This document shows positions 9,800 through 25,934 of a stretch of 55,028 nucleotides of DNA, in pieces. The position numbers and the translations under genes were made by a program. Position 1 is the first letter of the stretch; every line of letters begins with the position of its first letter. The stretch comes from Thioclava dalianensis (GTDB lineage Bacteria > Pseudomonadota > Alphaproteobacteria > Rhodobacterales > Rhodobacteraceae), in NCBI RefSeq assembly GCF_000715505.1, contig NZ_JHEH01000022.1, positions 1 through 55,028 on the forward strand, given 5' to 3'. The notes beneath the pieces are model-generated. The model was not told the DNA's origin. It made no database searches and saw only the letters and a program-made list of their open reading frames with translations.

Positions 9800-12160
9800 T
9801 TGGCCCAGAGTGATTCCGCCCCCGTCCAAGCCCGCATCGCGCAGACCATCGCCACGGATATCGCGGCGCGCCCGGCGCAGGTGACCGCGGCGATCGGCCT
9901 TCTTGATGGGGGCGCGACTGTGCCCTTCGTTGCGCGCTATCGCAAAGAGGTCACCGGCGGGCTTGATGACACGCAGCTGCGGCTGCTCTCGGATCGGCTG
10001 GGCTATCTGCGCGAGATGGAGGCGCGGCGCGAGACGATCCTCAACTCGATCCGCGAACAGGGCAAGCTGACCGACGATCTGGCCCGCGCGATCGGACGGG
10101 CCGAAAGCAAAGCCGCGCTTGAAGATATCTACCTGCCCTTCAAGCCCAAGCGCCGCACCAAGGCGATGATCGCGCGCGAAAACGGGCTCGAGCCGCTCTG
10201 CCGCGCGATTCAGGACGACCGGAGCGCCGTGCCCGAGGTCCTGGCGGCGGGCTACATCACCGAGGCCGTGCCCACGGCGAAGGACGCCCTGCAGGGCGCG
10301 CGTGACATCCTGACCGAGGAGCTGTCGGAAAATGCCGATCTGCTCGGTGCCCTGCGCGACTTCATGCGCGCCGAGGCCATCATCACCGCGCGCGTCGTTC
10401 CCGGCAAAGAAGAGGCGGGCGCGAAGTTCTCGGATTACTTCGACCACCGCGAGAAATGGGCCGACATTCCCGGTCACCGTGCGCTCGCCATTTTGCGCGC
10501 GGCGAAGGAAGAGATCGTCACGATGGAGATCGCGCCCGACCCGGAGACCGGCGAAGACCGCGCGATCAGCAAAATCTCAGCGACCCTCGACACCCAAGCC
10601 GGGCGTCCCGGCGATCTGTGGCTGCGCGATGTGGCACGCTGGGCGTGGCGCGTGAAATTCTCGGTCTCGCTTTACATCGACCTGCTGGGCGAGCTGCGCC
10701 AGCGCGCCCATGAGGAGGCGATCAAGGTCTTCGCGCGCAACCTGCATGACTTGCTGCTGGCAGCCCCCGCCGGGCCGCGCGCGACGCTGGGTCTTGATCC
10801 CGGCATCCGCACCGGGGTGAAGGCTGCGGTGGTCGATGCGACCGGCAAGCTCTTGGAGACCGCGACGCTCTATCCGTTCAAGCCGAAGATGGACCTGCGC
10901 GGGGCCGAGGCCAAGATCATCGAGATGGTCAAGCGCCACGGGGTCGAGCTGATCGCCATCGGCAATGGCACCGCCAGCCGCGAGACCGAACGGCTGGTCG
11001 TCGATACGCTCAAACTGCTGCCGCCGGGGGTGAAAGCGCCGACGCATGTGGTCGTCTCGGAAGCCGGTGCTTCGGTCTATTCGGCCTCGGAACTGGCTGC
11101 GCGCGAATTCCCCGATCTCGATGTCAGCTTGCGCGGCGCGGTCTCGATCGCGCGGCGACTGCAGGATCCGCTGGCGGAGTTGGTGAAGATCGAACCCCAA
11201 AGCATCGGCGTCGGGCAGTATCAGCATGACGTTGATCAGCGCCGCCTGTCGCAGGCGCTTGAGGCAGTCGTCGAGGATGCGGTGAACGCCGTGGGGGTCG
11301 ATCTGAACATGGCCTCTGCGCCGCTTCTGGCGCAGGTGGCGGGGCTCGGTCCCGCGCTGGCGCAGGCCATCGTCGCGCATCGGGACGCGCATGGGGCCTT
11401 CCCCTCGCGGCGCGCTCTGATGAAGGTGGGCGGGCTTGGCCCCAAAGCCTTCGAGCAATGCGCGGGCTTTTTGCGCATCCGTGACGGCGACGAGCCGCTC
11501 GATGCCTCCTCTGTCCACCCCGAAGCCTATGCGGTCGCCCGCAAGATCGTGCAAAGCTGCGGCCGCGATATCCGCGAGATCATGGGCCAGCCGACCGCGC
11601 TGAAAGGCCTGAGCGCGGAGCAGTTCGTGACCGGCGATTTCGGCCTGCCAACGATCCGCGATATCTTTGCCGAGCTGGAAAAGCCCGGTCGCGACCCGCG
11701 CCCCACCTTTAAGACCGCGCAATTCACCGACGGGGTCGAGGATATCAAGGACCTCAAGCCGGGGATGAGCCTTGAGGGAACCGTGACCAATGTCGCGGCT
11801 TTCGGCGCGTTCGTGGATATCGGAGTGCATCAGGACGGGCTGGTGCATGTCAGCCAGCTCGCCGATCGCTTCGTGAAGGATCCGCACGAGGTGGTGAAAG
11901 CGGGCGATGTCGTGCGCGTGCGCGTGACCGAGGTCGACATCCCGCGCAAACGGATCGGCCTGTCGATGCGCAAGCAATCCGAGGGTGGCACGAATGCGCA
12001 AGGGAAAGGCCCCACGCTGCAAGGTCACGACCGAGGCAAGCCCAATCCGCAAGCCCCCCGTGGCAAAGGCCCCGGCAAAGGGCAAGACAAGGCGACCGCG
12101 AAAGACAGCGGCAACGGCGCGTTGGGCGCCGCGCTGCGCGACGCGATGAACCGGCGGTAG
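9800..12160 (+). CDS. tex: Tex-family RNA-binding transcriptional accessory protein
   Basis: A 786-residue protein with the full Tex layout: an N-terminal helical domain with [20 protein letters not shown], a YqgF-like RNase H fold around residue 328 ([12 protein letters not shown]), helix-hairpin-helix repeats around 500-560 ([19 protein letters not shown]), and an S1 RNA-binding domain at about 653-725 ([16 protein letters not shown]). The last 50 residues are a Gly/Lys/Gln-rich disordered tail. Tex associates with transcription complexes and RNA. The start is a TTG at 9800 preceded by CAGGAGAG; no ATG fits. An IS5-family remnant begins immediately after the TAG stop. Confidence 0.95.
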
Positions 12161-12577
12161 GGTCAGCTCAGGACCCATTGATTTCTGTTGCGTCGCGTGA
12201 GTCACGGCTCCGAAAATGGAGCGGTGACGTGAGCGATCTCTACTGGCTGACCGACGCGCAGATGGCGCGTCTGGAGCCCTATTTCCCGACGTCCGACGGT
12301 AAGCCGCGCGTAGATGACCGCCCTGTTCTGAGCGGGATTACCTTCATCAATCGCTATGAGTTGCGGTGGCGAGATGCACCTGCGGATAAGGTCCGCCCAA
12401 GCCCCTGTACACTCGCTGGACGCGATGGAGCGAATATGGCGTATTTGGACGTATCATGTTTGGCTTGGCCGCCGAGCAGGGTGAGAAGAAGACGGCCATG
12501 ATCGACGCGACCTATCTGAAGGCACGTCGAACGGCGACCAGCATGGCCGCCAAAAAAGGGGGGCGTGGTCGTCTGAT

Positions 12578-12620
12578 CCATTGCCCGGCAGGGCATTGCG
12601 CAGCAATGGGCCGAGAGGGG
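12578..12620 (-). repeat. mini hairpin element, copy A (in IS5 transposase)
   Basis: A 43-bp segment absent from the expected IS5-family coding sequence, where KKGGRGRLI should run into the next codons (GRTKGG in relatives, as I remember them). On the plus strand it reads TGCCCGGCAGG, then the hairpin CATTGC-GCA-GCAATG, then CCGAGAGGGG. The net insertion is 41 bp (12579-12619) and shifts the frame. It is homologous to copies B, C and D. Confidence 0.85.
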
Positions 12621-12906
12621 GGCGAGCCAAAGGCGGCGTGAAAACGAAGCTGTAGGCCATCTGCGACAGCCAAGGGCGCCCACTCAGCTTCTTCGTCACC
12701 GCCGGTCAGGTCAGCGACGACATCGGAGCACGGGTATTGTTGGGTGGCTTGCCAAAGGACGGCTGGCTGCTGAGCGACCGCGGCTCCGACGCGGACTGGA
12801 TCCGGGAAGCGTTGAAAGACAAGGGGATACGCGCCTGCATCCCGGGCCGAAAGCAGCGACAAACAACTGTCAAATACGATAAGCATCGCTACAAACGCCG
12901 CAACCG

Positions 12907-12949
12907 CCCCTCTCGGCACCTCGCGTGCCGTGATGCCTGCCGGGCAGCG
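12907..12949 (+). repeat. mini hairpin element, copy C (in IS5 transposase)
   Basis: A second insert in the same IS5 copy, opposite in orientation to copy A. It begins CCCCTCTCGG (the complement of the CCGAGAGGGG end), carries the hairpin CGGCAC-CTCGC-GTGCCG, and ends with CCTGCCGGGCAGCG. The hairpin sequence differs from that in copies A and B but is still fully self-complementary. Net insertion is about 43 bp, between the codons for KRRNR and EI(I/M)FGRLKDW. Confidence 0.8.
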
Positions 12950-13225
12950 ATGCGAGATCATCTTCGGTAGGCTGAAGGACTGGCGACGCGTCGCGACCCG
13001 AGACGACAGGTGCCCCAAGGTCTTCCTCTCCGCAATCGCGCTCGCAGCTACCGTCATCTATTGGCTATGAGCCTAGCTGCGGATGTGGCCCGGATTCGAT
13101 GTCATCCCGATATCCACCCCTTATAAGCGTGATCGAGCGCAATGATTTCAAATGTCGCCGGTTTGACCCTATCCACTCCGTCCCGCGCGCGATGTCGCGC
13201 GGGCCAATATCGCAAGAGGCCTCAA

Positions 13226-15391
13226 TCAGCGGTACGGGATCAAAGACTCGCACAGGGGCGAGTTCGATCTGAAGTTGATTTCTGTCTGCGCCGAAGGCTG
13301 CAGCCATCGGGCCGAAAAGACCTTCTCGGGCAAGGGCCGGTCGAAAAAGAAGCCCTGCCCCGCGCCGCATCCTAAGCCCTGTAAGATATCGGCCTGCCTC
13401 TCATTTTCGATCCCTTCTGCGACCACCTTGCACCCCAGCCCCTTGGCCAAGGCGATGGTGGCCTCTACGATCTTCAACGTCTTGCTGTCCGTCGAGAGGT
13501 CGGCAACGAAGAAATTATCGATCTTAATCTTGTCGACCGAAAACTGCATCAAAAGGGCGAGCGAGGAATAGCCCGTGCCAAAGTCGTCGACGACCAGCTT
13601 CACGCCCATCTCCTGTAGCTGTGAGACCACCTGTTGCGCCGCCTCCGGTGCCTTCAACATGACGTTTTCCGTCAGTTCGATTTCGATCTGATCCGGGCGG
13701 ACGCCGTGGTATTCGCACATGTCGATGATATCTCGGACGATCGAGCCGTCTTCGAGTTGTTCCGCTGCCACATTGATGGAAACCGGACACGGAACGGTAT
13801 AGCCCCCCTCTTCCCATGCCTTGATCGCTCTGCAAGCTGCCCCCACAACCCACCGGCCCAGAGCACGAAGCATGCGGTATTCCTGCGCGATCGAAACGAC
13901 GTCCGCCGGGGACACCTTGCCAAGTTCGGCATCAGTCCATCGCAGCAGCGCCTCAACGCCAACCAAGCGACCGGAGTTAAGATCGACGAAAGGTTGGAAA
14001 GCCAGTCGAAGGCTACCCTCATCTAGGGCCAGTGCCAGACGCTCGGACATCCTTTGCCGCGCCTTGATGCGCTTCTTCATATCCGCGTCATAGGCCGAAA
14101 AGCCGATTTTGCGTATTTTGGCATCATACATTGCGATATCGGCGGCCTGCAGCAAGTCCCGCGTGGAGGTGCAATCTTCTGGGTAGCGCGCCATCCCGAT
14201 GCTGGCCTCGATCCGATGGCGATGACCGTCTATCACGATGGGACGGCTTAGCGTGGTCAGCATACTCCTGATGTGAATGGCGACCGCATCTGGATCGACT
14301 GCATCATGGAGCACGACGAATTCATCCCCTCCAAGCCGGGCAATAAGACGCGCGTCCGGCATGGCCGCCCTAAGACGGTGGGACGTCACTTTGAGTACCT
14401 CGTCACCGGTGGCATGCCCGAAAGTATCGTTGATCTGTTTGAACCGGTCGAGGTCGAGATAATACAGGTGCAGCCGGTTGTTGGGCTCCAAAAGGGCTTT
14501 CGCCAAGTAGTTCTGCAAATGTGCGCGGTTGGCCAACTCGGTCAGCGGGTCAAAAAGGGCCAGATGGCGCATCTTTTCTTCGTTGTCTCGACGTTGCGTA
14601 ATGTCCTGCACGAATGCGAGAAAGATCGGCGGGTTTTCATTGCGCGCGTAGTGAAGCGCAATATCGCACGGATATCGGCTGCCATCCTTGCGTTGGTGCA
14701 CGGTTTGAAACGACAGCATATCCTCCGTGCCGTCAATCAAGGGTGCGACCATCTTCCGGAAGGTCGGTTCATCAAATTCGGGTTTGATATCCACCGGGGT
14801 CAGGCACGATAACTCGTCAGCTTCATAACCAAGGTTGTCGCGTGCTCCACGGTTCACCAACATGAAATGCAGGCTCTGCGCATCAAAGACAAACACCTCA
14901 TTGGCCGAATGTTCCACCACGCGCCCCATACGAGACAAAGCACGCTCTCCGCGTTTTTGGTCGGAGACGTCGTGACGAATTGAGACGAAGCGTTCGATTT
15001 TCCCGTCAAGGCCGCGCAACGGTAGGATGACACTATCGACCCAATAGATGGATCCGTCTTTTGCACGATTGCAAATCTCACCGTGCCAGGCCTTGCCGCT
15101 CCGGATGGTTTTCCAAAACCTCTTCCAGAAATCTGAGTCGTGGGTGCCAGAACTTACAATGTTATGAAAAGAGCCGATCAGCTCCTCCTTGGAATAGCCG
15201 CTCAGCGCGCAGAAGGCAGGGTTGATATGTGTGATCCGGCCCCTCGCATCCGTCTCGCTGTAGATCATGTGCTCTTGGATCGCCGCAAGCACCGGGTCCC
15301 AACGGGTGCCTCTGGCATCTTTCGGAAAGGCCTCCACCAGAACACGCAGATTATCCGTGTCTGAACCTACCGCTTGAAATTTATGTGCCAT
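13226..15391 (-). CDS. PAS-PAS-GGDEF-EAL cyclic-di-GMP turnover protein
   Basis: A 721-residue cytoplasmic sensor with two PAS domains (about 30-125, with DARGRITHINPAFCALSGYS, and about 145-265), a GGDEF diguanylate cyclase domain (about 275-430, intact RLGGDEF and FKQINDTFGH), and an EAL phosphodiesterase domain (about 450-705, with GVEALLRW, DDFGTGYSS and KIDNFFV). Both active sites look complete, so it could make or break c-di-GMP. There are no membrane helices; the signal is presumably sensed by the PAS domains. The start at 15391 (MAHKFQAVG) has AGGCAGGG upstream and is preferred over an upstream frame extension to 15460. Confidence 0.93.
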   Translation of the reverse strand: MAHKFQAVGSDTDNLRVLVEAFPKDARGTRWDPVLAAIQEHMIYSETDARGRITHINPAFCALSGYSKEELIGSFHNIVSSGTHDSDFWKRFWKTIRSGKAWHGEICNRAKDGSIYWVDSVILPLRGLDGKIERFVSIRHDVSDQKRGERALSRMGRVVEHSANEVFVFDAQSLHFMLVNRGARDNLGYEADELSCLTPVDIKPEFDEPTFRKMVAPLIDGTEDMLSFQTVHQRKDGSRYPCDIALHYARNENPPIFLAFVQDITQRRDNEEKMRHLALFDPLTELANRAHLQNYLAKALLEPNNRLHLYYLDLDRFKQINDTFGHATGDEVLKVTSHRLRAAMPDARLIARLGGDEFVVLHDAVDPDAVAIHIRSMLTTLSRPIVIDGHRHRIEASIGMARYPEDCTSTRDLLQAADIAMYDAKIRKIGFSAYDADMKKRIKARQRMSERLALALDEGSLRLAFQPFVDLNSGRLVGVEALLRWTDAELGKVSPADVVSIAQEYRMLRALGRWVVGAACRAIKAWEEGGYTVPCPVSINVAAEQLEDGSIVRDIIDMCEYHGVRPDQIEIELTENVMLKAPEAAQQVVSQLQEMGVKLVVDDFGTGYSSLALLMQFSVDKIKIDNFFVADLSTDSKTLKIVEATIALAKGLGCKVVAEGIENERQADILQGLGCGAGQGFFFDRPLPEKVFSARWLQPSAQTEINFRSNSPLCESLIPYR

Positions 15392-15588
15392 GATCGCCCT
15401 GCCCTGCCTCTGCGTTGGAACAAAGTGGCGTAAGAGGGTAAACAATCTGATAAATCCCAAGGCAGAAATGAGCTTCCAGACAGCGAAATGGAGTCACTCT
15501 CGATCCGCGAGTGTCCCCAGCGGTCGACCTTCCGATCGAGCCGTCAGGTCGTGGGATCAATCGCCGCGCAAAGGTTCGTCTCCCGTCC

Positions 15589-15699
15589 TCAGCGTCGATC
15601 ACTTCGAGGTCGCGAAAGGCGGTAGAGGTCCGGGGAGCAGGTCATCAGACGCCAGATCAGGTACAGACCGATCGCTATGAATATGGTGGACATCGCCAT
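15589..15699 (-). CDS. possible 36-residue single-span membrane protein
   Basis: A short frame MAMSTIFIAIGLYLIWRL followed by a basic tail (LSRPRSDRR). The first half would form one membrane helix with a cytoplasmic positive tail. It begins two bases after the stop of another tiny membrane-protein frame, and no strong ribosome site is visible. The paired arrangement raises the chance that it is real, but the call is weak. Confidence 0.3.
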   Translation of the reverse strand: MAMSTIFIAIGLYLIWRLMTCSPDLYRLSRPRSDRR

Positions 15700-15701
15700 G
15701 T

Positions 15702-15806
15702 TTATTCCAAGCGAACCTGCGCGCGCGAAAAAACACCATAGACGGTAAACGCCGCCAGGGCGAACCAGCACATAGCAGCCATATATCCCAAGATTCTGTT
15801 CGCCAT
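15702..15806 (-). CDS. possible 34-residue single-span membrane protein
   Basis: The frame MANRILGYMAAMCWFALAAF continues to VFSRAQVRLE and would make a single membrane helix. The ribosome site is weak (CTGGA). It is followed after 2 bp by a second one-helix frame. No family is recognised. These lie alone between the GGDEF-EAL gene and the CPBP protease gene. Confidence 0.3.
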   Translation of the reverse strand: MANRILGYMAAMCWFALAAFTVYGVFSRAQVRLE

Positions 15807-16056
15807 ATCGGTCAATCCAGGAGCGCCAAGAGACTCGAACGATACCGCCAGGAGGTGGCCAAGCCAATCCGGGGAACAGTGAGCTCGACGGCACCGGGCT
15901 TGCCGCAAACCGGATAGGGTGGTGGCGCGAAACGGATAGCGAGAGGCTGGGGTTCCGCATATTCTTAGATGCGTCTATTGTGCTGACACGGCGAATTTTT
16001 TTCCAGTCAGATCCGTGCAGTGCGGACATGGTCGCAGAGCCGTGTGAGGTAACAAG

Positions 16057-16845
16057 ATGCCGCAGAACGTTGCCAATCTGAGAGAGGTTTCCAACCGCGA
16101 CGGGCTCTTCTTTTTCGAGCGCTCGGATTGCGATTTACCGTTTTACCGCGGAGTGCCAATCTTTCTCGGCACAGGACGTTGGTTGATTGTTCTCGCGTCT
16201 GTTGCGCTGGCTTTCACGGCTCTCATTCAGGCGCAACAGATGTTCAACACGGGCGTGGCGACCTTCATTCCCTCGTTGCTTTTCGTGCTGATCCCACTTG
16301 TGACATTGGGACTGGTCGGAGGTTGGCAGGCACCCTCTGCGCTCTTTCGTCCACTGCGCCGCCGCGATTTCCTGCTCATCATCGGGTTTCTCGTGCTGAA
16401 CTGGATCGTGACGATCATCGTGGGCCTGCTGATCGTCGGTATGTTTCAAGGCTTGGCAAACCCGGCCGTTGAGCGTGTGGCCGGTGCCTCAGGAGCGGAT
16501 CGCGCGATTTATTTCGGCGCGACGGCGATCCAATTGCTGGGCGAGGAAATTCTTACGATCCTGCCGTTCCTCGCCTTTTTGACGCTGCTCAATGGAGCGT
16601 TGGCAAGAAAGACCGCGCTCGCTCTTGCGGCGCTCGGGGCGGCCGTCATTTTCGCGCTCGTCCACCTACCGACCTACCAGTGGAACGTGCCACAAGCCTT
16701 GGTCGGACTGGTCCCGATCCGCCTCGTCCTCTTGCTGCCTTTCATCATTACACGAAACATCTGGGTCTCTACCGGCGTCCATATCCTGAACGACTGGGCG
16801 ATTTTCACCATGACAATGATCGGCGGTCCGGATGCGGCGGGCTGA
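16057..16845 (+). CDS. CPBP-family intramembrane metalloprotease
   Basis: A 262-residue protein with about seven membrane helices. The three CPBP (CAAX protease/bacteriocin-processing) motifs are visible: the glutamate pair in LLGEEILTILPFL, the zinc-type His in FALVHLPTY, and the C-terminal HILNDW. The Arg usual a few residues after the EE pair is not seen. Family members cleave within membranes or confer bacteriocin resistance. GAGGT lies 8 bp before the start. It is the first of six plus-strand genes that mostly encode envelope proteins. Confidence 0.85.
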   Translation: MPQNVANLREVSNRDGLFFFERSDCDLPFYRGVPIFLGTGRWLIVLASVALAFTALIQAQQMFNTGVATFIPSLLFVLIPLVTLGLVGGWQAPSALFRPLRRRDFLLIIGFLVLNWIVTIIVGLLIVGMFQGLANPAVERVAGASGADRAIYFGATAIQLLGEEILTILPFLAFLTLLNGALARKTALALAALGAAVIFALVHLPTYQWNVPQALVGLVPIRLVLLLPFIITRNIWVSTGVHILNDWAIFTMTMIGGPDAAG

Positions 16846-16872
16846 CAGGTCGAACCTTGAGAGGAGTGCATA

Positions 16873-17481
16873 ATGACCCTCGGAAACCTCACTCTGATCG
16901 CTCTTCTGGCGATGTCTCCCGCAGCAGTGCTGGCGCAGGACGGTCCCACGTTCGACTGCACCAAGGCTGAAAGTTCAGCGGAAAAGCTGATCTGCGACGA
17001 CCCCGAACTCGCAGCGCTCGATCGTCGGCTCGCGGAACGCTTCGCGGCGGCGGTGAAAGTGGCGGAAGGTCTCGATACCGGAGCCGAGAAAACCACCAAG
17101 ACGCTTCGCGCGATGCAGAGAGGCTGGATTTCGGGGCGTGACGAGTGCTGGAAAGAGCCCGATCTGCGCGCCTGTGTCGAGACCGCGTATCTGCGGCGTG
17201 AGGCAGAACTCGTAGCCGAATTCACTCTCGAGGCGCCGAAGTCGACGGTCGAGCTGATCTGTGGCGACGGCGCGCGTGCCCTGACCGTGGACGAATTCGC
17301 AACCGAGCTTCCCGGAATTCGGGTCGAAGAAGGCGACCACGTCGAGATCGGCGCGCAGCTTTCTGCGGATACACCCGGAACCTATTACCTGCGCGGAGCG
17401 GGCGGGATCGTTCTCGACGATGGGACCCCGCGTATTCAAGATGCCTATGGAAAAGAGACTGACTGCCGGATCTCTGGCTGA
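16873..17481 (+). CDS. secreted LprI/DUF1311-type protein, possible lysozyme inhibitor
   Basis: A 202-residue exported protein: a signal peptide (residues 1-22, ending VLAQD), then the LprI-like four-Cys helical domain (FDCTKAESSAEKLICDDPEL, GWISGRDECWKEPDLRACVE). After residue 115 there is a beta-rich part with two cysteines (VELICGDG and ETDCRI) that resembles MliC-type lysozyme inhibitor folds; that second match is weaker. LprI of mycobacteria inhibits lysozyme. GAGGAG is at good spacing. It lies 27 bp after the CPBP gene, probably in one transcript. Confidence 0.75.
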   Translation: MTLGNLTLIALLAMSPAAVLAQDGPTFDCTKAESSAEKLICDDPELAALDRRLAERFAAAVKVAEGLDTGAEKTTKTLRAMQRGWISGRDECWKEPDLRACVETAYLRREAELVAEFTLEAPKSTVELICGDGARALTVDEFATELPGIRVEEGDHVEIGAQLSADTPGTYYLRGAGGIVLDDGTPRIQDAYGKETDCRISG

Positions 17482-17569
17482 AGGGTTGCGGGCGTCCCGC
17501 TGACTTGAACTGCTGTCGCCTCGATCCGCCGCGGCAGCTCAAAAGCTATCTGACAGGGAGTATGAGACC

Positions 17570-17905
17570 ATGAGATACTACACGATCGCGCTGCCTTTGC
17601 TCGTCTTGTTGTCGGGCTGCATCGAAGGCACGCAGAGCACCACCGCAATAAACAGTTCCGGTGGCACCTCGAGCGGGACGATCATCCCGCGCAGCGACGG
17701 CGGCTATGCGCTGACCTTCTCGGCGCAAGGCAATGCGTGCTCAGCCGTTTTCGACGACCCGAGGCCACGTGGAAGAGAGCTGTCGCCGGTCACCTGCACC
17801 GGAGACGGAAGTGGTAACGCGACGATGGTCTATTCCGACGACGGCACGCCTGATCGCGTGACCTTTGGCGGTCTCGGGATTGGCAGTGGCACCTTGGTAT
17901 TCTGA
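17570..17905 (+). CDS. small outer-membrane-type lipoprotein
   Basis: A 111-residue lipoprotein. The signal peptide ends in the lipobox LLSGC (Cys at residue 17), followed by a Ser/Thr/Gly-rich linker. Residues about 36-111 form a small beta domain with GGYALTFSAQG, one Cys in each half (NACSAVF and PVTCTGDG), ending in GTLVF. The same pattern recurs at the C-terminus of the next protein, so they share a domain I cannot name. AGGGA precedes the start. Confidence 0.7.
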   Translation: MRYYTIALPLLVLLSGCIEGTQSTTAINSSGGTSSGTIIPRSDGGYALTFSAQGNACSAVFDDPRPRGRELSPVTCTGDGSGNATMVYSDDGTPDRVTFGGLGIGSGTLVF

Positions 17906-17962
17906 TATCAGACCTGGCGGGGTCTCGCCCGCCCGGCCTTGCATGGCAAAAGGGGAACCGAA

Positions 17963-18796
17963 ATGAAACGCTTGTTGCTCTTCATCAGCTTCGCGCTCGC
18001 ATGCACAGGCCTCTTTGGTCTGTCCGCTCGGGCCGATGGCGGCCCGGATTATTGGCAGGTAACAGGGGTCGCCGCCAACGACCATTTGAATATCCGCTCC
18101 GGCCCCGGCACTGCGAACCAAATTGTGGCCATCGCGCCCAATGGTGCCGTCTTTCGCAACCTTGGGTGCCGGGGCGCGGGATCCGCACGCTGGTGTCACG
18201 TCGAGACACCGGACGGGCACAGCTCGGGTTGGGTGTCCGGGCGGTTTCTGCGCGAGACTGGTGCGCCGGGTTCGGGTAGCGGTGGGACGCGGCAGGTCGG
18301 CGTGCCGGAGCTATACGAGCGCAGCAGCGGAGAGATCGAGCTGCGGTTTCCAAGCGGTTGCACCGTGCTTTATAATCCAGCCGGTCGGGTCATCACGGCG
18401 GGCGGCTCGTGTTCCCGCGCGCAACGCAGTCGCGCCGACGATGCCGTTGCGCGTCACATGCGCGAACAAGGCAATCATGCCGATCATTCGGGTGGAAGTG
18501 CTCCGGCTGCAAACGTCAATGTCTCAGGGAATGGCACTATCTATGGCGGAGGCGCGCTGAATGGCCGGATCTTCGGCCACAAAGAAGGTGCCTACGCGGT
18601 GACAATCTCCGGCGACGGCATGACCTGCACCGGGCTCTTCAAACACGCACCGGGCACGGTGCGGAGCGAAACGGCCTCGCTCCATTGCACCGATGGGGCG
18701 CACGGCACCGCAGTCCTCGTTCGTAATCGGAGTGGCAATGGGAACACCCTGACCATGACCCTGACGAATGGAACCGGTGGTTATGTGCTATTCTAA
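17963..18796 (+). CDS. secreted SH3-domain protein with a C-terminal domain shared with the neighbour
   Basis: A 277-residue exported protein. The signal peptide (about 1-24) is followed by a bacterial SH3 domain (LNIRSGPGTANQIV, WCHVETPDGHSSGWVSGRFL), which in other proteins binds peptidoglycan. The middle part is low-complexity (a Gly/Ser linker, then RSRADDAVARHMREQGNH). The last 75 residues (GAYAVTISGDG, CTDGAHGTAV, GGYVLF) match the lipoprotein encoded just upstream. The start is ATG 17963 with AGGGGAACC upstream. Confidence 0.75.
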   Translation: MKRLLLFISFALACTGLFGLSARADGGPDYWQVTGVAANDHLNIRSGPGTANQIVAIAPNGAVFRNLGCRGAGSARWCHVETPDGHSSGWVSGRFLRETGAPGSGSGGTRQVGVPELYERSSGEIELRFPSGCTVLYNPAGRVITAGGSCSRAQRSRADDAVARHMREQGNHADHSGGSAPAANVNVSGNGTIYGGGALNGRIFGHKEGAYAVTISGDGMTCTGLFKHAPGTVRSETASLHCTDGAHGTAVLVRNRSGNGNTLTMTLTNGTGGYVLF

Positions 18797-18925
18797 GCTC
18801 GGCGCAGGCGTCCGGCGGGTTCGAAATCATCTTGTCTGACAAAGCCTTTCCGGCGCCGATCTCAAAAGGTGCCGGGGGACGGGTCTTGAGGGTATGTGGT
18901 TCGGTTTTGAAGAAAGGTCTTATTG

Positions 18926-20854
18926 ATGTCTCCTGATCAGATCGTCGCCACGGTGATCACCCTCATGAGCACCACGGCAAATCCTGCTTTTGAGACGCTG
19001 AAAGCCGGCGGCTATGACACAGGTTATCCGGTCGCGATCGAGGCCTGTCCCCGACCGCTTGGGCCGCTGGAAGTCGAGGGGCAGACGGTGATCTGCGGTC
19101 GCGTCACCGTGCCGGAGGATCACGACGCACCTGACGGGGCGACGATCCCACTTGCCTTCGCGGTGCTCAAATCCCACTCCACCGCCCCCGCGCCGGACCC
19201 GGTGATCTATCTGCATGGCGGTCCGGGAGGATATACGGTGCAGACGATTCCGACGAACGCCGCGCTGTTCGATTTCCTTCGCGACAGGCGCGACATCGTT
19301 CTGTTCGACCAGCGCGGCTCGGGGATCTCGGATCAGACCATTGCCTGCTATAACGAGTTTTCCGAAGATTTCATGCAATTCGCACAAGCCGACGAGGAGA
19401 CGATGTTCGACGCCGACCAGCCATTGGCGAAATGCCTTTCGGAGACGGTCGCGACTGGCGTTGATCTGTCGCTCTACAATACGACGCAAAGCGCGCGCGA
19501 CGTGCGCGCCATCATGGATGCTCTTGGCTATCCCGACTACAACGCCTTCGGCATCTCCTACGGCACCAAGCTGGGCCAGGAGCTTTTGCGCAGCGCTCCC
19601 GAAGGCTTGCGAAGCCTCGTAATCGACAGCATCAGCCGAGTGGACAATCCGGCCTATGATACGAACGGCGTGCCAGTGGATCAGGCGCTTGGCTGGGTCG
19701 TGGACTACTGCATGGCGAATGAAGCCTGTGCGGCAGCCTATCCGGATCTGGAGGAGACCATCCACGCGGCCGGAGCCCGCTTGGCGCAAGAACCGAAGCT
19801 GACGCTCGCAGGGGAAGAGATCGATCAGAGCCTGATGTTGGATCTGATGGATGCCAGTAACACGCGGGCGATGCCGTTCACGGCTTATCTGCCGCAGGTT
19901 TTCACCGAATTGGCGGAGGGCAAAACAGCGACGCTCGAGAAGCTCCTCAAGGGGGGCTTCAACCCCGACGGCTCCCCGGAGGCGATCCTTGCCAGATACG
20001 GCGCTGCCATGGGTGAAATCGACAAGACGATTGCCGAGGTGGCGTTGATGCAGGCCGAGCAGATGCGTAGCACGCAGGCTGCGGTGGGCAAGCTGCTCTC
20101 GACCCTGTCCGACGACCTCGCAGCCTCAGGCGCTCTTAACACCGAAGCGCTTCTGGATGAACAGCTTTCCGCAGTCGCGACCACGATGGAAGCGGATGTG
20201 TTGCTGGCCTTTCTGCACGACTACGTTCAGCTTGTCGGACAAGATCCTGACCGGGAGGCGATCGAAACCCTCATCGACCGATATGTGCCCGAGGTCGAAA
20301 AAACACGGTTACTTGGGCTCGTAACGGCAATGACGCAGGAAGACGTCGCCGCCTTCTACCAGCGCGCCCGAACGGACTCGGCCAACATCACCTCGAAATC
20401 TCGGATGATCTTCACCTTGGGTATCATCGCCTGCCAGGAGGATTTCCCATTCAATTCTCGCGAGGGCTACAACGATGTAGCGGCCGGGTATCGCTTTCCC
20501 TCCATCGATACGGGTGTGCGCAAGACGACCCTGCCGCTCTATGGTTTTTGCGACCTCTTCGAGAAGCATCCACGCGCGGGCTTCCACGCCCCCGTCAGCA
20601 GCGACATCCCTGTGCTTGCGATGTCGGGAACAAAGGACACACAGACCAACCCTGATGCCGCCGCAAAGGTCGTGCGCTCCCTCACAAAGGGTCAAGCCGT
20701 GCTCTTCCCCGAGGCTGGCCATGCCGTCATCCAGTTCTCGCAATGCGCGAAGGACGTGGCGGAAGGGTTTCTGGAAGACCCCAATACCGAGGTGAACGCC
20801 GCCTGCATCGAAGGGCTGAAACCGCAATTCTATGTGCCGGCATCGACGCAATAG
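18926..20854 (+). CDS. alpha/beta hydrolase, TAP-like (peptidase S33 type), copy 1
   Basis: A 642-residue alpha/beta hydrolase. It has the oxyanion segment YLHGGPGG, the strand VLFDQRGSG, the nucleophile elbow GISYGTKLG (Ser near residue 209), a long helical cap (about 260-480), and the TAP-like C-terminal part with the acidic residue in SGTKDTQT and the His in GHAVIQFS. Relatives are proline or tripeptidyl aminopeptidases. Unlike most, it starts MSPDQIVATVI with no signal peptide. GAAAGG precedes the ATG at 18926. A paralogue follows 20 bp downstream. Confidence 0.85.
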   Translation: MSPDQIVATVITLMSTTANPAFETLKAGGYDTGYPVAIEACPRPLGPLEVEGQTVICGRVTVPEDHDAPDGATIPLAFAVLKSHSTAPAPDPVIYLHGGPGGYTVQTIPTNAALFDFLRDRRDIVLFDQRGSGISDQTIACYNEFSEDFMQFAQADEETMFDADQPLAKCLSETVATGVDLSLYNTTQSARDVRAIMDALGYPDYNAFGISYGTKLGQELLRSAPEGLRSLVIDSISRVDNPAYDTNGVPVDQALGWVVDYCMANEACAAAYPDLEETIHAAGARLAQEPKLTLAGEEIDQSLMLDLMDASNTRAMPFTAYLPQVFTELAEGKTATLEKLLKGGFNPDGSPEAILARYGAAMGEIDKTIAEVALMQAEQMRSTQAAVGKLLSTLSDDLAASGALNTEALLDEQLSAVATTMEADVLLAFLHDYVQLVGQDPDREAIETLIDRYVPEVEKTRLLGLVTAMTQEDVAAFYQRARTDSANITSKSRMIFTLGIIACQEDFPFNSREGYNDVAAGYRFPSIDTGVRKTTLPLYGFCDLFEKHPRAGFHAPVSSDIPVLAMSGTKDTQTNPDAAAKVVRSLTKGQAVLFPEAGHAVIQFSQCAKDVAEGFLEDPNTEVNAACIEGLKPQFYVPASTQ

Positions 20855-20874
20855 ACCCAGAGGAAGGATGCGAA

Positions 20875-22863
20875 ATGTCGCCTGATCAGATCATTGCTCT
20901 CATCGCTGCGCTGACGGCCGAGCCCGACCCTAACGCTTTTTCCCAACTGAAGAACGGCGGTTTCGATCCCTCCTTTCCCGTGACGATCACCGCATGCACG
21001 CGTCCGGTCGCTCCGACCGAAATCGAGGGCAAGACGGTGATTTGTGGCAAGATCCAAGTGCCGTTCGACCATCGCAAACCCGAAGGAAAGACGATCGACA
21101 TCGCCTTCAATCTTTACAAGGCGCGCTCACTGTCACCGCAGCCCGACCCGGTGATCTACCTCCACGGCGGTCCCGGAAGCGGCACCGTCAGCCGGGTGGC
21201 AAAAACCGTCAGCTACTTTGAGCACCTGCGGGAGCGGCGCGACATCATCGCGATCGACGAACGCGGCGTGGATGCGAGCGCGCCCGATATGGATTGCTAT
21301 TCGACCCTCGGAGAACAGCTTGGCCCCGTGGTTGATGCGATTGGTGGCGCCGCCATCCCGTCTCTCGGGCTGGATTTCATCAAGGGCTGCCTTAAGGAAC
21401 TCGAGGCCAAGGGCATCGACTATTCCCTCATCAACACCGAGCAGAACGCGATGGATGTCCCGGCCGTGATGTCGGCTTTGGGCTACGACCACTACAACAT
21501 CTACGGGATTTCCTACGGAACCAAGCTGACGATGGAGATTTTGCGCCAGAATCCTCCCGGCATCCGTGCGGCGGTCATCGATGGCAACGCCCCGCCGTGG
21601 CTGCCGCTTTATTCAATGTTCTGGCAGTCGCATTCCACGCCGATCCGCAAGACCCTGGAGCCTTGCGAGCGCGATCCTGTCTGCAACGCGGCATATCCCG
21701 ACATCATCCCGCGCACCTTCGCGCTCATCGACAAGCTGGGCGCCGAACCGGTGGAGGGTCCGAACGGCAAGGTCGGTCTGGAGGAGCTGTTCTTCACCAT
21801 CGACGGACGTGTGGACATGAAGGGCCATTACGCTGCGCTTTCGCCCTATCTCCCGCTGATGGTCACCCAACTCGAAAAGGGCGAGACCACGATCTACGAC
21901 GAGATCACCTCTGGGGAACTGCCGCCGAAACCGGCCAGCGCCGATGCCGATGCCGCGCGCGCCGCCGCGCAGGCGGCAGGCTTGAGCGCCTCCGAAATGG
22001 TGTTGGTTGATGCGATGTTGGCTGCCGCCGATCACATGCGGATCGCGGAGAGCACTGTGGAAAATGCCGCGCAGGCGCTCGAAGCAGACCTTGATGCCGA
22101 AGCCCGCGGCACCGATCTGGCCGAGATATTCGACGACCGTCTGGCCGACGCCATCCGCGCCCTCGATGATCCCGACGAGCGGCTGGCCGCCGGGCGCGAC
22201 TACCTCGACCTAAGATTCGTGAAGCCTTCGGTCGATCCGCTGATTGCCTTGGCGAAGACCCATTTCGATAGTGAAACCGGCGCGACCATAGCAGCCCTCG
22301 CGCGTCAGCTTGGCCCCGACGACCTGACCCGTGTCTTCGACTTGATCCGCATCGATAATCAGGCAACGGTCAAGGACGTGGAAGGCATGCTTCAACTGCT
22401 GCTTTACGCCTGCCAGGAGGATTTCGTGGACGGCTGGAACTCGCCTGAGAAGTTCCGCGCGCTGATGATCGAAGATGGCTCCTGGGGCCCGGTGATGCAA
22501 GACATCATGGTCGACTGGCTGTCCACTCCCTTCGTCGAACCCTGTGCCCTGTTCGACGAGCACCCACGCAAGGACTGGACGACCATCGGGTCATCGGACC
22601 GGCCCGTGCTGTCGATGAACGGGGAGCTCGACACGCAGACCGCCGGGATATGGGGCGCGCTTGCGGTGCAGAACTACAGCAACGCGCAGGTGGTCATGGT
22701 GCCCGAATCCGGCCACGGCACCATCCAGTTCAGCCAATGTGCCAAGGACATCACCGCCGCCTTCATCGAGGATCCGACGGGCAAGCTTGATACGTCTTGC
22801 GTCGAAGATCTTCGCCTCCCGGTGATGATGCCCGACGGAACGATGCATCCACTGCCATATTGA
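20875..22863 (+). CDS. alpha/beta hydrolase, TAP-like (peptidase S33 type), copy 2
   Basis: A 662-residue paralogue of the preceding gene. It has the same N-terminus (MSPDQIIALIAALTA), VIYLHGGPGSG, VIDERG-type strand (IAIDERGVD), nucleophile elbow GISYGTKL, acid in NGELDTQT and His in SGHGTIQF. The cap contains an Ala-rich helical insertion (about residues 350-400). Again there is no signal peptide. GAGGAAGG lies 7 bp before the ATG. Tandem duplication followed by divergence is clear; the two may act on different substrates. Confidence 0.85.
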   Translation: MSPDQIIALIAALTAEPDPNAFSQLKNGGFDPSFPVTITACTRPVAPTEIEGKTVICGKIQVPFDHRKPEGKTIDIAFNLYKARSLSPQPDPVIYLHGGPGSGTVSRVAKTVSYFEHLRERRDIIAIDERGVDASAPDMDCYSTLGEQLGPVVDAIGGAAIPSLGLDFIKGCLKELEAKGIDYSLINTEQNAMDVPAVMSALGYDHYNIYGISYGTKLTMEILRQNPPGIRAAVIDGNAPPWLPLYSMFWQSHSTPIRKTLEPCERDPVCNAAYPDIIPRTFALIDKLGAEPVEGPNGKVGLEELFFTIDGRVDMKGHYAALSPYLPLMVTQLEKGETTIYDEITSGELPPKPASADADAARAAAQAAGLSASEMVLVDAMLAAADHMRIAESTVENAAQALEADLDAEARGTDLAEIFDDRLADAIRALDDPDERLAAGRDYLDLRFVKPSVDPLIALAKTHFDSETGATIAALARQLGPDDLTRVFDLIRIDNQATVKDVEGMLQLLLYACQEDFVDGWNSPEKFRALMIEDGSWGPVMQDIMVDWLSTPFVEPCALFDEHPRKDWTTIGSSDRPVLSMNGELDTQTAGIWGALAVQNYSNAQVVMVPESGHGTIQFSQCAKDITAAFIEDPTGKLDTSCVEDLRLPVMMPDGTMHPLPY

Positions 22864-22895
22864 TGCTGGGTGCGCACGGCGCCCGCGCATGACGA

Positions 22896-23834
22896 TCAGC
22901 GTCCGCCCCGGATTGGCGCACGGGCGCGGCGCAGCGTTTTCGATGGCAACTCCCCGAAACGCTGCTTGTACGCGTGGCCCGTGCGCCCGAAGTGGAATAG
23001 ACCGCACGCGAGTGCCGCAGAGGTCACGGTGGTCGCCTCTTCCGCCGTCATGAGACGTGCGCGCAGCGCGCTCAGCCGCAAATCCGCGATATACTGCCGA
23101 GGCGATTGTCCCAGCCAGGAGGAGAACGCCCGCTGCAAGGTCCTGAGATCGACCCCGGCCGCATCCGCGACCTCCTGCACGGTGAGGGCACTCGAGTAAG
23201 ATTCTGCGATGAAGTCCCGCGCCGTCGCGAGAACTCGCTGCACGCTCTGATCTCCCGGAGTCAGTCGATCCGGGGCCGCGGGCGACATGGATTCCATGAA
23301 CATCTCGTCGATCAAGGCTTCGATCAGCGCGATTTTCGTATCGAAGACGAAATCTGCCACGTCGTGGATTTCGAACGATAACTCGAGAAGCTGCCGGAGT
23401 TGCAGGCATTTGTTATAATTCGGAACGTGTTTGCCGGGCGGCTCGCCCGGCTCGCCCATGGATCGACCCGCTGGCGCTATGACGGAGTAACTCTCATAGG
23501 CTCCCCCGTCGGACCCAGGCATGAGGCGGCTGTGCCACTCAGCTTTTCCGATGCGAAACATATCGCCGGGTTTGAGAGCATAGCGAGCTCCGGCCACCGA
23601 AACTTCGCTATGTCCTCCGCCGACGATCGTGAGGACGGTGCGGTCCGGCTCGATGAACGTGCCTTCGTGCCCGGTGGAGTTCACCGCGACGACCGTGAAC
23701 CCACGCGGCCCGGGAGGCAGGCGCCTGTGACGCAGTCTCTGCACCGGGCCAAAAAACTTGAAATCGCGGACTTTGGAAAAGATCTGCGGAAGTTCGGATC
23801 CGGGTCGAAACTCATTGATAGAAATCTGAGACAT
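22896..23834 (-). CDS. AraC-family transcriptional regulator
   Basis: A 312-residue regulator. An N-terminal cupin-like sensing part (ALKPGDMFRIGKAEWHSRL) is followed by the two-helix-turn-helix AraC domain at about 205-300: LTVQEVADAAGVDLRTLQRA and then ALACGLFHFGRTGHAYKQRF. The end converges on the second hydrolase gene, 32 bp apart. It could control the hydrolase genes, but nothing in the sequence proves it. Confidence 0.9.
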   Translation of the reverse strand: MSQISINEFRPGSELPQIFSKVRDFKFFGPVQRLRHRRLPPGPRGFTVVAVNSTGHEGTFIEPDRTVLTIVGGGHSEVSVAGARYALKPGDMFRIGKAEWHSRLMPGSDGGAYESYSVIAPAGRSMGEPGEPPGKHVPNYNKCLQLRQLLELSFEIHDVADFVFDTKIALIEALIDEMFMESMSPAAPDRLTPGDQSVQRVLATARDFIAESYSSALTVQEVADAAGVDLRTLQRAFSSWLGQSPRQYIADLRLSALRARLMTAEEATTVTSAALACGLFHFGRTGHAYKQRFGELPSKTLRRARAPIRGGR

Positions 23835-24279
23835 GAAGGCACGCCCAATTCATCACGGTTGCGTTATCGTACCACGCCTCAGCCCCGTCCGCGAAGCCGA
23901 ACTTGCCTTTTCTTCACCAAGCACATCCCGGTCTCGACGCCGATTTTTTGTGTAACGTCAGAGGGGTTGCGATGCTCCTCCATGCAGGTCGAACTCGGCA
24001 TCGGCAAGAAATCTCCGCTTGGGAGACGCACCACGAAGCAGAGGAAATCAACTGCGCGCCCTTATTGCGCGCGCAGGCGGACGATAAAATTGTTCCCAAA
24101 AGCGCAGAGGCGTTCGTTTCCTTGGTTGCCTTTTGAATGCAAGGAAAGCTCAAAAACAGGAATATTTGGCGCAAATGACTGCTTTGTCGTTGGCCTTCAA
24201 CATTGGTCACATCCGCAGCTAGCTGTTTGATCCCAGGGTTTGATGGTGTGATCCTTTCTCAGGACTGGAAGGAAGCATT
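23835..24279. other. intergenic region and IS481 left end
   Basis: About 445 bp between the AraC start and the IS481 transposase start. It is AT-richer than the surroundings (runs of A and T near 24140-24180), has no convincing gene, and its last 60 bp (from about 24220, GTTTGATCCCAGGG) resemble an IS481 left end. The AraC promoter must be in the first part. Confidence 0.4.
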
Positions 24280-24310
24280 ATGGGACAAGTTCGTCATGGC
24301 AGCGCCACGA

Positions 24311-24353
24311 TCCCGTTGACCGACAGGTGAATGCGCGCATTCACCGAGAGGGG
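24311..24353 (+). repeat. mini hairpin element, copy D (in IS481 transposase)
   Basis: An insert after the codons for MGQVRHGSAT. It reads CCGTTGACCGACAGG, then the perfect 18-bp palindrome GTGAATGCGCGCATTCAC, then CCGAGAGGGG (the blocks overlap by a few bases). The two flanking blocks match copy A (12 of 15 and 10 of 10 bases); only the hairpin sequence differs. Net insertion is 40 or 43 bp and shifts the frame by one. Confidence 0.8.
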
Positions 24354-24675
24354 CGCACGCCGTCAGAGCTGCAGTACAGCGGTCGCAAGCTTCGCTCGCG
24401 CAGCTGAGCAAGGAGCTGGGCATCAACCCCAAAACCGTCGCGAAGTGGCGCAAGCGCGCGACTGTCGAAGACTTGAAGCCCGGGCCAAAGGAGCCGCGTT
24501 CGACCGTTCTTACGGAAGCGGAGGAAGCAATGATCGCCGCCTTCCGGCGGCATACGCTGTTGCCGCTGGATGATTGCCTCTATGCCTTGCAGCCAACAAT
24601 CCCGCGCCTAACCCGGTCAGCGCTTCATCGTTGCCTGCAGCGGCATGGGATCTCGCGCTTGCCGGATATCGAGGG

Positions 24676-24718
24676 CCCCTATCGGGACATTGCTGCGCAA
24701 TACCCTGCCGGGCGGCGG
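24676..24718 (-). repeat. mini hairpin element, copy B (in IS481 transposase)
   Basis: An insert between the codons for LPDIEG and DKPKRQKF. On the plus strand it reads CCCCTATCGG, then CATTGCTGCGCAATA, then CCCTGCCGGGC. It is the reverse complement of the copy A type, and its hairpin is nearly the same as in copy A. Net insertion is 41 bp (24677-24717), which shifts the frame by two. Confidence 0.85.
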
Positions 24719-25316
24719 ACAAACCAAAGCGGCAGAAGTTCAAACGCTACCCAATCGGCTTTTTCCATATCGACATCGCGGAAGTTCAGACGGTTGAGGG
24801 GAAGCTCCATCTCTTTGTGGCCATTGATCGAACCAGCAAGTTCGCGGTCACCCAACTTGTCGAAAAGGCCGATCGCAAGACAGCCTAGGAATTTCTTGAG
24901 CACCTGCTCAAGAGGGTTCCCTACCGCATCCACACGATCCTGACCGACAATGGCATCCAGTTCGCCGAGCAACCCCGGAACAGGAACACAGCGTATTCGC
25001 GCCAGATGCGCTTCGATATGATCTGCGAGGCAAATGGGATCGAGCACCGCCTGACCAAACCGAACCATCCTTGGACCAACGGTCAGGTCGAGAGGATGAA
25101 TCGCACGATCAAAGAAGCCACAGTCAAGCGATACCACTACGACAGCCACGATCGGCTGCGCACACACCTCGCGGACTTCATGGCAGCCTACAACTTCGCC
25201 CGCCGGCTCAAGACGATCAATGGGCTCACGCCTTACGAATACATCTGCAAAATCTGGACGTCAGAGCCAGACAGATTCATCATTGATCCGATCCACCAAA
25301 TGCCGGGACTAAATAC

Positions 25317-25934
25317 CTAGGCCTTGTATTTTGCGACAAATTCCGCAGCCGGGAGCGCACGGAAATCAGCCAGCGCCGCGTGCAGGCGCTCATGCTCCCA
25401 ATCCCACCAGGCGAGGTCGAGCAGGTCCTGCGCGACCTCATCGGGAAAGCGCATTCGCAGCGGTTCGGCCGCGACCCCGGCGACGATCGTGAACGGCGCC
25501 ACATCCTTCGTCACCACCGCGCCCGATGCGACCACGGCCCCTGCCCCGATCGTGACTTCGGGCTTGATGATCGCACCATGCCCGATCCAGCAATCCGGCC
25601 CCAGTGCCGTTCGGCGCGACGCGCGTTGAACGAAGAATTCGTCCCAGTCGGCCTCATCCGCCCAATAATAGTGAGATCTGTAAAGGAAGTGATGCTGCGC
25701 CGCGTTGCGCCACGGATGATCGGTCGGCCCGATCCGGGTGAACGCCGCGATATTTGCGAATTTCCCGACACTCGTGTTCGTAATATCGGCATAGCGGTCG
25801 CAATAGGCGTAATCGCCGAAATCGGAATTCAACACGCGGCTGCCACGCCCCAGCTCGCAATAGCGCCCGAAGGTCGAATTGCTCACCTCGCAATCGGCGG
25901 GAATATGGGGCGTATCGGGATCAAGCTTGGGCAT
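25317..25934 (-). CDS. hexapeptide-repeat acyltransferase of phosphonate loci
   Basis: A 205-residue left-handed beta-helix transferase of the xenobiotic acetyltransferase type. It has hexapeptide turns ([40 protein letters not shown]) and the active-site His region RIGPTDHPW. Similar proteins are encoded next to phosphonate transport and C-P lyase genes; their acceptor is not established. It ends in a stop codon shared as CTAG with the IS481 transposase on the other strand. It is the last gene of the phn cluster here. Confidence 0.8.

Follow-up and report, generated by a model that had tools for sequence, protein, structure and literature searches.

Short hairpin elements in transposase genes of Thioclava dalianensis and other Rhodobacterales

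A family of hairpins of about 41 letters occurs across the order Rhodobacterales. The element is short and non-coding. It lies in either orientation in transposase genes belonging to several unrelated IS families, and a single IS copy often holds more than one. Insertion is precise, falls between C(A/G)TC and a following G, and does not duplicate the target. Element-bearing IS copies have multiplied, among them one that also has an additional stop codon. With a probability of roughly 0.65, we regard the family as a REP-like, non-autonomous mobile hairpin that is moved in trans and preferentially ends up in mobile-element genes.

Hairpin copies and their structure

The window, i.e., the whole 55,028-nt stretch of T. 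dalianensis DNA that was analysed, contains the four inserts previously described in a sequence-only reading, each of which was located by a covariance model and in both orientations as described (Table 1). That reading saw no further copy within the 55 kb, and this stands, as the next best window position scored 12.6 bits (E 0.17). The insert size had been given as 41–43 bp; about 41 bp holds and 43 bp does not, since the unit is 41 bp (39–42 bp in the window). Pfam domains identify both interrupted genes as transposases, the second of which we take to be IS481. Removal of the inserts, which was said to put the reading frames back in register, still leaves no working gene because both genes have extra frameshifts or stops. 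The IS5 copy, which can be aligned to annotated IS5 transposases from other genera, is frameshifted close to reference residues 54 and 214 (the latter adjoining hairpin copy 2) and has a stop at residue 129 in addition to the hairpins, and the rve-type pseudogene has an in-frame stop at 24886–24888. Set against uninterrupted IS relatives, copy 1 corresponds to a clean gap of 41 bp in three of them, without target duplication, and copy 2 represents a difference of 43 bp. The site of copy 2 is also filled in a locus from another genus (L235, at 1375), where the stem is intact.

Table 1. Hairpin copies and interrupted transposase genes in the window.
Feature	Position	Strand	Pfam match or model score
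IS5-type copy, transposase pseudogene, carries hairpin copies 1 and 2	12171–13080 (ends approximate)	+	DUF4096, DDE_Tnp_1, DDE_Tnp_1_2 on pieces
Hairpin copy 1, 41 bp, sense, at CTGATC/GGG	12579–12619	+	61.4 bits
Hairpin copy 2, antisense, stem decayed	12908–12949 (ends inexact)	-	35.1 bits
rve-type (IS481-like) transposase pseudogene, carries hairpin copies 3 and 4	24280–25322 (ends approximate)	+	HTH, rve_3
Hairpin copy 3, 39 bp, sense, stem without bulged base	24314–24352	+	39.6 bits
Hairpin copy 4, 41 bp, antisense	24677–24717	-	58.7 bits

The general layout is 5'-CNYTGMCCGRCAGG-(stem-loop)-CCGAGAGGG-3', in which the stem-loop varies and usually has a single bulged base; the commonest length is 41 bp and the consensus ends are CNYTGM...GAGAGGG. 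In an alignment (A2) of 36 distinct 41-nt copies, chosen in a manner that favours well-formed ones, 98.1% of cells were paired, 7 of the 9 pairs were changed on both sides, and covariation reached 0.595 compared to 0.161 in shuffles; the pair at model columns 14/33, for example, is also seen as T-A, C-G, and A-T. Such strong compensatory change supports the earlier proposal of a selected stem structure. When single copies were folded as DNA, two of four were no stabler than shuffles (z -0.79 and -0.18). A comparison with Rfam (window positions 12000–25500 and seven loci) gave nothing above the gathering score at any element, and a weak match to isrB (27.2 vs. 35 bits) spans the L093 copy.

Distribution and insertion sites

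Over the complete genome (4.18 Mb), the covariance model identified six strong copies, all within three IS copies that hold two each; the third pair is inside another IS5 copy (C36:19735–19889). One degenerate copy (C14, 25.5 bits) lies outside any recognised transposase, and two further matches (21.2 and 18.1 bits) are taken as chance. A spaced pattern gave four matches in the same genome and none for its reversed control. Among 394 genomes of the family, 102 were matched by the pattern, mostly 1–14 times per genome, and none by the reversed control.

Target, site, and placement counts are based on a set of 309 copies (250 distinct) from alignments A4 (best 150 of 151 matches) and A5 (best 150 of 174), from which 25 weak matches may be missing; IS5 frameshift counts are left aside for that reason. 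Before counting, L009, L026, and L032 were dropped for want of a palindrome, and of 31 viral stretches 8, chosen by eye, were kept. Some of the transposase seeds were proteins taken from these loci, and their family names were in part assigned by eye; with them, 181 of the 250 distinct copies are inside or between matching transposase pieces, 12 are only within 1.5 kb of a match, and 26 are near none. Some are clearly intergenic, located in a dispersed intergenic repeat or between other genes. In three finished related genomes, whose loci were not chosen for clusters, 31 of 32 copies are within IS copies. The suggestion that the hairpins occur only inside transposase genes is thus right for most copies and slightly too strong for a minority. 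The host genes belong to several unrelated IS families in many genera (the Pfam tally covers 122 of 126 fragments from 38 loci, four L045 fragments being excluded), and one copy (L108) presumably sits in a tyrosine integrase gene, judging by eye from its motifs. Several elements per IS copy are common among the multi-element loci, which had been picked because clusters were present, and up to six (one of them weak) were found in one IS3 copy (L224).

Among 17 insertions compared with uninterrupted relatives, ten are clean 41-bp gaps without duplication, two are 40 bp, and three are 43 bp, while the flanks of the remaining two (L231) align poorly. The clean empty sites and the many IS families and genera support the previous view that a mobile mini-element inserts itself into IS elements. 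The target composition over 247 copies is C (.55), A/G (.54/.26), T (.64), and C (.73) before the insertion point and G (.84) after it, and C(A/G)TC is a pre-existing target sequence and not a part of the element. It is tempting to pair the GAGG tail with C(A/G)TC, but no such pairing is claimed here because GATAGGG-tailed copies show no matching change in the target.

The insertion sites are numerous and distinct. At one IS3 site, the transposase of L231 differs from the other two with dS > 1.1, although the elements differ at only 0–1 of 41 positions; recent re-insertion is preferred there and an old inherited insertion is disfavoured. At IS5 site 129 (L071, L229, and L230), a common compensatory variant suggests inheritance. 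Two places (L202/L236 and L230) lack the stretch of IS5 that separates two insertion sites and have a single element where the ends meet, an arrangement expected from recombination between two elements.

Fate of the interrupted genes and origin of the placement

Only 36 of 247 element lengths are multiples of three; the other 211 shift the frame, and the transposase gene as read is therefore usually broken. Of the copies inside a transposase match (n = 159; by the same seeds), 69 are sense and 90 antisense. Element-bearing IS copies often carry other disabling mutations, and Dinoroseobacter shibae has three identical IS copies, each with two hairpins and a stop, meaning that a dead copy multiplied. 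These observations together argue against splicing or translational bypass, which the sequence-only reading had considered and by which the insert would be excised from the RNA or passed over by the ribosome and the transposases would remain functional. This intron-like alternative does account for the frames that are intact when inserts are left out computationally (a 283-aa IstB with three inserts, a 327-aa IS5 with two, and a 465-aa IS1182 with one), for the multiplied carriers, and for the finding of no close element-free copy in D. shibae or G075. The intact frames, however, are also explained by recent insertion, and two G075 copies, L083 and L086, have a stop and are separated from L082 by mainly nonsynonymous changes. 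With the antisense copies, the frame-shifting lengths, and the additional stops and frameshifts of several carriers, including those of the window and the multiplied D. shibae copy, we reject bypass and give it almost no credence.

The concentration in IS genes may also arise from survival alone, whereby elements inserted at random over C(A/G)TC/G sites would be purged from useful genes, kept in dispensable IS genes, and spread by the IS. Transposases are, as is generally known, dispensable, some copies do lie outside IS genes, and carriers multiply even when their own transposase is not intact. The target motif, however, occurs at 8.2 per kb around insertions in IS genes, 7.5 in unannotated gaps, and 9.5 in sampled host genes; motif density is rejected as the cause of the IS preference since sampled host DNA is no poorer in it, and with equal density survival alone should leave many intergenic copies, in contrast to the 31 of 32 within IS copies in the finished genomes. 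The many distinct sites and the gathering of several elements in single IS copies are also against survival as the whole explanation, which we consider improbable. A host system that recognises transposase genes and actively writes inactivating hairpins into them is less probable still. Such a defence is consistent with the concentration in unrelated IS families and the integrase gene, the usual frame shift, and the several inserts per gene, but the target motif is short and general, interrupted IS copies multiply nonetheless, copies occur in the dispersed intergenic repeat and between other genes, and a search limited to PF01797 found no such enzyme. More broadly, the hairpins may be written into transposases of many kinds of IS by a dedicated order-wide process, either a transposon parasite or a silencing genome defence, with a new enzyme and a new means of recognising transposons; we regard this as less likely than not.

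As a REP-like mobile hairpin, the element would have no enzyme of its own, and a recombinase whose gene lies elsewhere would move it in trans. By analogy with the action of Y1 (HUH) transposases on IS200/IS605 and REP hairpins, this recombinase may recognise the folded single strand through its constant arms, stem, and bulge. Mobile-element genes would be favoured at insertion and not via survival alone, perhaps with single-stranded or gapped IS copies arising during transposition as the target, and interrupted IS copies, mobilised in trans by relatives, would provide a second vehicle. The Y1 transposase (PF01797) is missing from the T. dalianensis genome and from 20 of 25 element-bearing genomes in all, whereas the five genomes that have it are all element-bearing (0 of 23 other genomes). 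No element lies beside any of four Y1 genes examined, and mobilisation by RAYT/Y1 is unlikely for most carriers, although every Y1 genome is a carrier.

If insertion is aimed at transposons, the hairpins would represent a layer of transposon biology in which a 41-bp parasite or disabler acts on several unrelated IS families. We did not find the phenomenon described in the open-access literature searched. Any tally of IS elements still active in Rhodobacterales should allow for hairpin inserts.

Comparison with known mobile and palindromic repeats

IS200/IS605 elements insert beside a short fixed tetranucleotide without duplication and have an imperfect hairpin with an unpaired base. The hairpins described here are similar in their insertion at a fixed short motif without target duplication and in their imperfect stem with one unpaired base, but are 41 bp long and geneless, and the PF01797 enzyme is missing in most carriers. 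IS200/IS605-type single-strand transposition (PMC5934647) is one of the closest known systems. GTAG REPs and REPINs with RAYT are also non-autonomous hairpin repeats with lineage-specific stems and number hundreds per genome (PMC3116915; PMC3733652), unlike the mostly 1–14 pattern matches found here. Moreover, the hairpin has no GTAG at either end or flank by composition, no hairpin flanks the four Y1 loci examined, and T. dalianensis has no Y1 gene.

The CGTC-tagged REPs are short palindromes common in Alphaproteobacteria, with 8–9 bp stems starting with AT, a CCA tail, mostly intergenic positions, and no dedicated transposase known, according to PMC3733652, which also poses the question of how they move. 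The likeness lies in short alphaproteobacterial palindromes adjoining a C-G-T-C-like tetranucleotide. In the hairpins, however, CNYTGMCCGRCAGG and CCGAGAGGG form the constant arms, C(A/G)TC belongs to the target, the consensus has no terminal CGTC tag, AT-starting stem, or CCA tail, and most copies are in transposase genes (181 of 250, as above). The family bears on the movement of the CGTC palindromes because its empty sites and target motif are directly readable. A MITE of a DDE transposon does not fit, as the clean empty sites show no target-site duplication.

Rickettsia palindromic elements are read in frame within host proteins. The hairpins resemble them as palindromes in alphaproteobacterial protein genes (PMC3733652). 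They differ in that most of their lengths (211 of 247) shift the frame. The small dispersed repeats of cyanobacteria are reportedly very small mobile palindromic repeats (Elhai, 2008), for which we know of no preference for transposase genes. The hairpins are likewise very small, palindromic, and mobile, in another clade.

Structure and extent of the hairpin family

The sequence-only reading had reported four hairpin inserts in the window and no further copy; all four are present, and under the covariance model the remaining positions score at most 12.6 bits. Copies 1 and 2 break an IS5-type transposase, and copies 3 and 4 an rve-type (IS481-like) transposase, as identified by Pfam.

Hairpin copies in the window, with edges from the covariance model
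Feature	Positions
Hairpin copy 1	12579-12619
Hairpin copy 2	12908-12949
Hairpin copy 3	24314-24352
Hairpin copy 4	24677-24717

The unit is organized as 5'-CNYTGMCCGRCAGG, then a stem-loop, then CCGAGAGGG-3', and is exactly 41 bp long in 139 of the 247 copies with both flanks (range 33 to 45). Among 36 distinct 41-nt copies, 98.1% of stem cells are paired, seven of the nine stem pairs have changed in both partners, and covariation scores 0.595 vs. 0.161 in shuffles and ≤0.113 when slid; the search pattern behind these copies constrained the outermost two stem pairs and left the inner sequence free. Copies found with the model add T-A, C-G, and A-T as further forms of the pair at columns 14/33. 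In most 41-nt copies a single base on the 3' side, usually T, is unpaired. Folding of four single copies as DNA was mixed (two lay about two standard deviations below shuffles, the other two did not), and the structural case therefore rests on covariation. The hairpin with its fixed arms is under selection. The elements at loci L027, L082, L120, L224, L239, and L240 form a subfamily in which the right end is TGAGAGGG and the stem is either TGGTTTGC/GCAAACCA or TCGTTTGC/GCAAACGA; it spans IS3, IS5, and IS21 genes in different genomes.

A spaced search pattern matched four times in the 4.18-Mb T. dalianensis genome, every time in the window, and the reversed-pattern control gave 0 matches. The covariance search of this genome yielded six strong copies, two in each of three IS copies; one degenerate copy lies outside, and the claim of exclusive occurrence in transposase genes is a slight overstatement. 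A similar pattern matched 102 of 394 genomes sampled from the family, and the reversed pattern gave zero in these genomes among the matches listed. Two 43-letter queries matched 78 and 97 plasmid records, which include many near-identical strains of one species; nearly all genera named in them belong to the Rhodobacterales, with exceptions such as Shinella. Species genomes, when scanned, gave at least 120 stretches, and the titles of the 80 listed are Rhodobacterales, except one Labrenzia and three MAGs labelled only Alphaproteobacteria.

Insertion sites and occupied genes

Window copy 1 and the copy in genome G134 both have unoccupied counterparts in annotated IS5 transposases of other genera. 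Comparison of 17 insertions with uninterrupted relatives gave a clean gap of 41 bp in 10, 40 bp in two, and 43 bp in three; the remaining two (L231) have poorly aligning flanks. No target duplication was seen at the clean empty sites. The target, in element orientation, is C (.55), A (.54) or G (.26), T (.64), C (.73) and, across the junction, G (.84). Insertion is precise, without duplication, and beside a short motif. C(A/G)TCG has a similar density per kb in sampled host genes (9.5, n = 11), in gaps (7.5), and around the IS insertions (8.2).

The reading frame is broken in most cases. A transposase match contains 159 of the 250 distinct copies, and 22 sit between two matching pieces; a match lies within 200 bp of 31 and within 1.5 kb of 12, and 26 have none near. 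Several copies of the last two classes, read by eye, also involve mobile-element genes (IS30, IS110, IS256, IS66, IS630, IstA, and IS3 OrfA), and a further copy of these classes is in the integrase gene at L108 (below). In 122 fragments that flank copies at 38 loci, the Pfam matches are chiefly to transposase families, with single matches to RelE, Phage_cap_E, DNA_methylase, Beta_helix, and DUF6638. A less biased census of three finished or nearly finished genomes gave 32 copies: 27 overlap a transposase match or are no more than 60 bp from one, a further two are in the reading frame of IstA, two fall by position inside mapped IS3 copies, and one is outside.

Genome G377, where five copies belong to a dispersed repeat between genes, and genome G108, with four intergenic copies, provide clear exceptions; these are chance samples from the pattern search. 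In G377 (L012, L072, L073, L074, and L075), the hairpin occupies one position in five ~250-bp repeat copies that are 83-90% alike, and the element may travel with the repeat. The G108 copies (L092-L095) have ~25 bp upstream in common, like TTCATCTTGCAAAATAAACTC, as if they were part of a larger unit or had selected a particular target. At L108, a tyrosine integrase gene (Pfam) carries the hairpin close to its 3' end, and thus transposases are not the sole genes struck.

The concentration in IS genes might arise through survival alone, but survival should leave more intergenic copies, and several elements gather in single IS copies; six are present in one IS3 copy (L224), with 16.6 bits for the lowest-scoring. 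For these reasons, we favour a real insertion preference for IS genes.

History and spread of carriers

Insertion sites recur across genera, usually with orientation kept; window copy 2 is decayed, and the same site in L235, from another genus, is occupied by an element with an intact stem. At one IS3 site in L231, L029, and L124, the frames are intact with the element left out. The IS3 of L231 differs from those of L029/L124 at dS 1.17-1.29 (dN/dS 0.11-0.13), whereas the elements show 0 or 1 difference in 41 bases, a contrast that points to the element having re-inserted recently at a conserved target. L071, L229, and L230 have a compensatory variant in common at IS5 site 129, and the element may have been inherited there.

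Interrupted IS copies have spread: D. shibae has three identical IS5 copies with two elements apiece, G340 three IS3 copies (~98%) with two elements, G075 four carrier copies with three to five, and G302 two IS21 copies with three. Beyond these carriers, the most similar IS5 copies of D. shibae share 75% identity, no close element-free copy was seen in G075, and relatives in G340 at 76 and 69% have lengths consistent with absence of the element. The numerous G340 family of ~1217-bp IS3 copies, at 69% likeness to the interrupted one, seems from its lengths to be free of the element and makes a natural comparison. The D. shibae carriers additionally contain a stop codon and so multiplied while lacking a functional transposase themselves. 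L202/L236 and L230 are missing the stretch of IS5 that separates two insertion sites and have one element at the junction, the arrangement that recombination of one element with another would produce.

Proposed mobilization and comparison with known repeats

The element would be moved in trans by an enzyme that reads the single strand in its folded form. A Y1 transposase is the obvious candidate; it is absent from 20 of 25 carriers, including T. dalianensis itself, and no element was found beside the four Y1 genes inspected. All five Y1-positive genomes are carriers, however, and Y1 is lacking from all 23 pattern-negative genomes, so it may have a partial role.

Searches of open-access literature turned up no description of the element. 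Among named groups, the CGTC REPs of Alphaproteobacteria come closest and likewise have no dedicated transposase (PMC3733652); their tag, stem, and tail are unlike those of the element, and they are chiefly intergenic. RPEs lie in frame within proteins, whereas the hairpin elements mostly do not.
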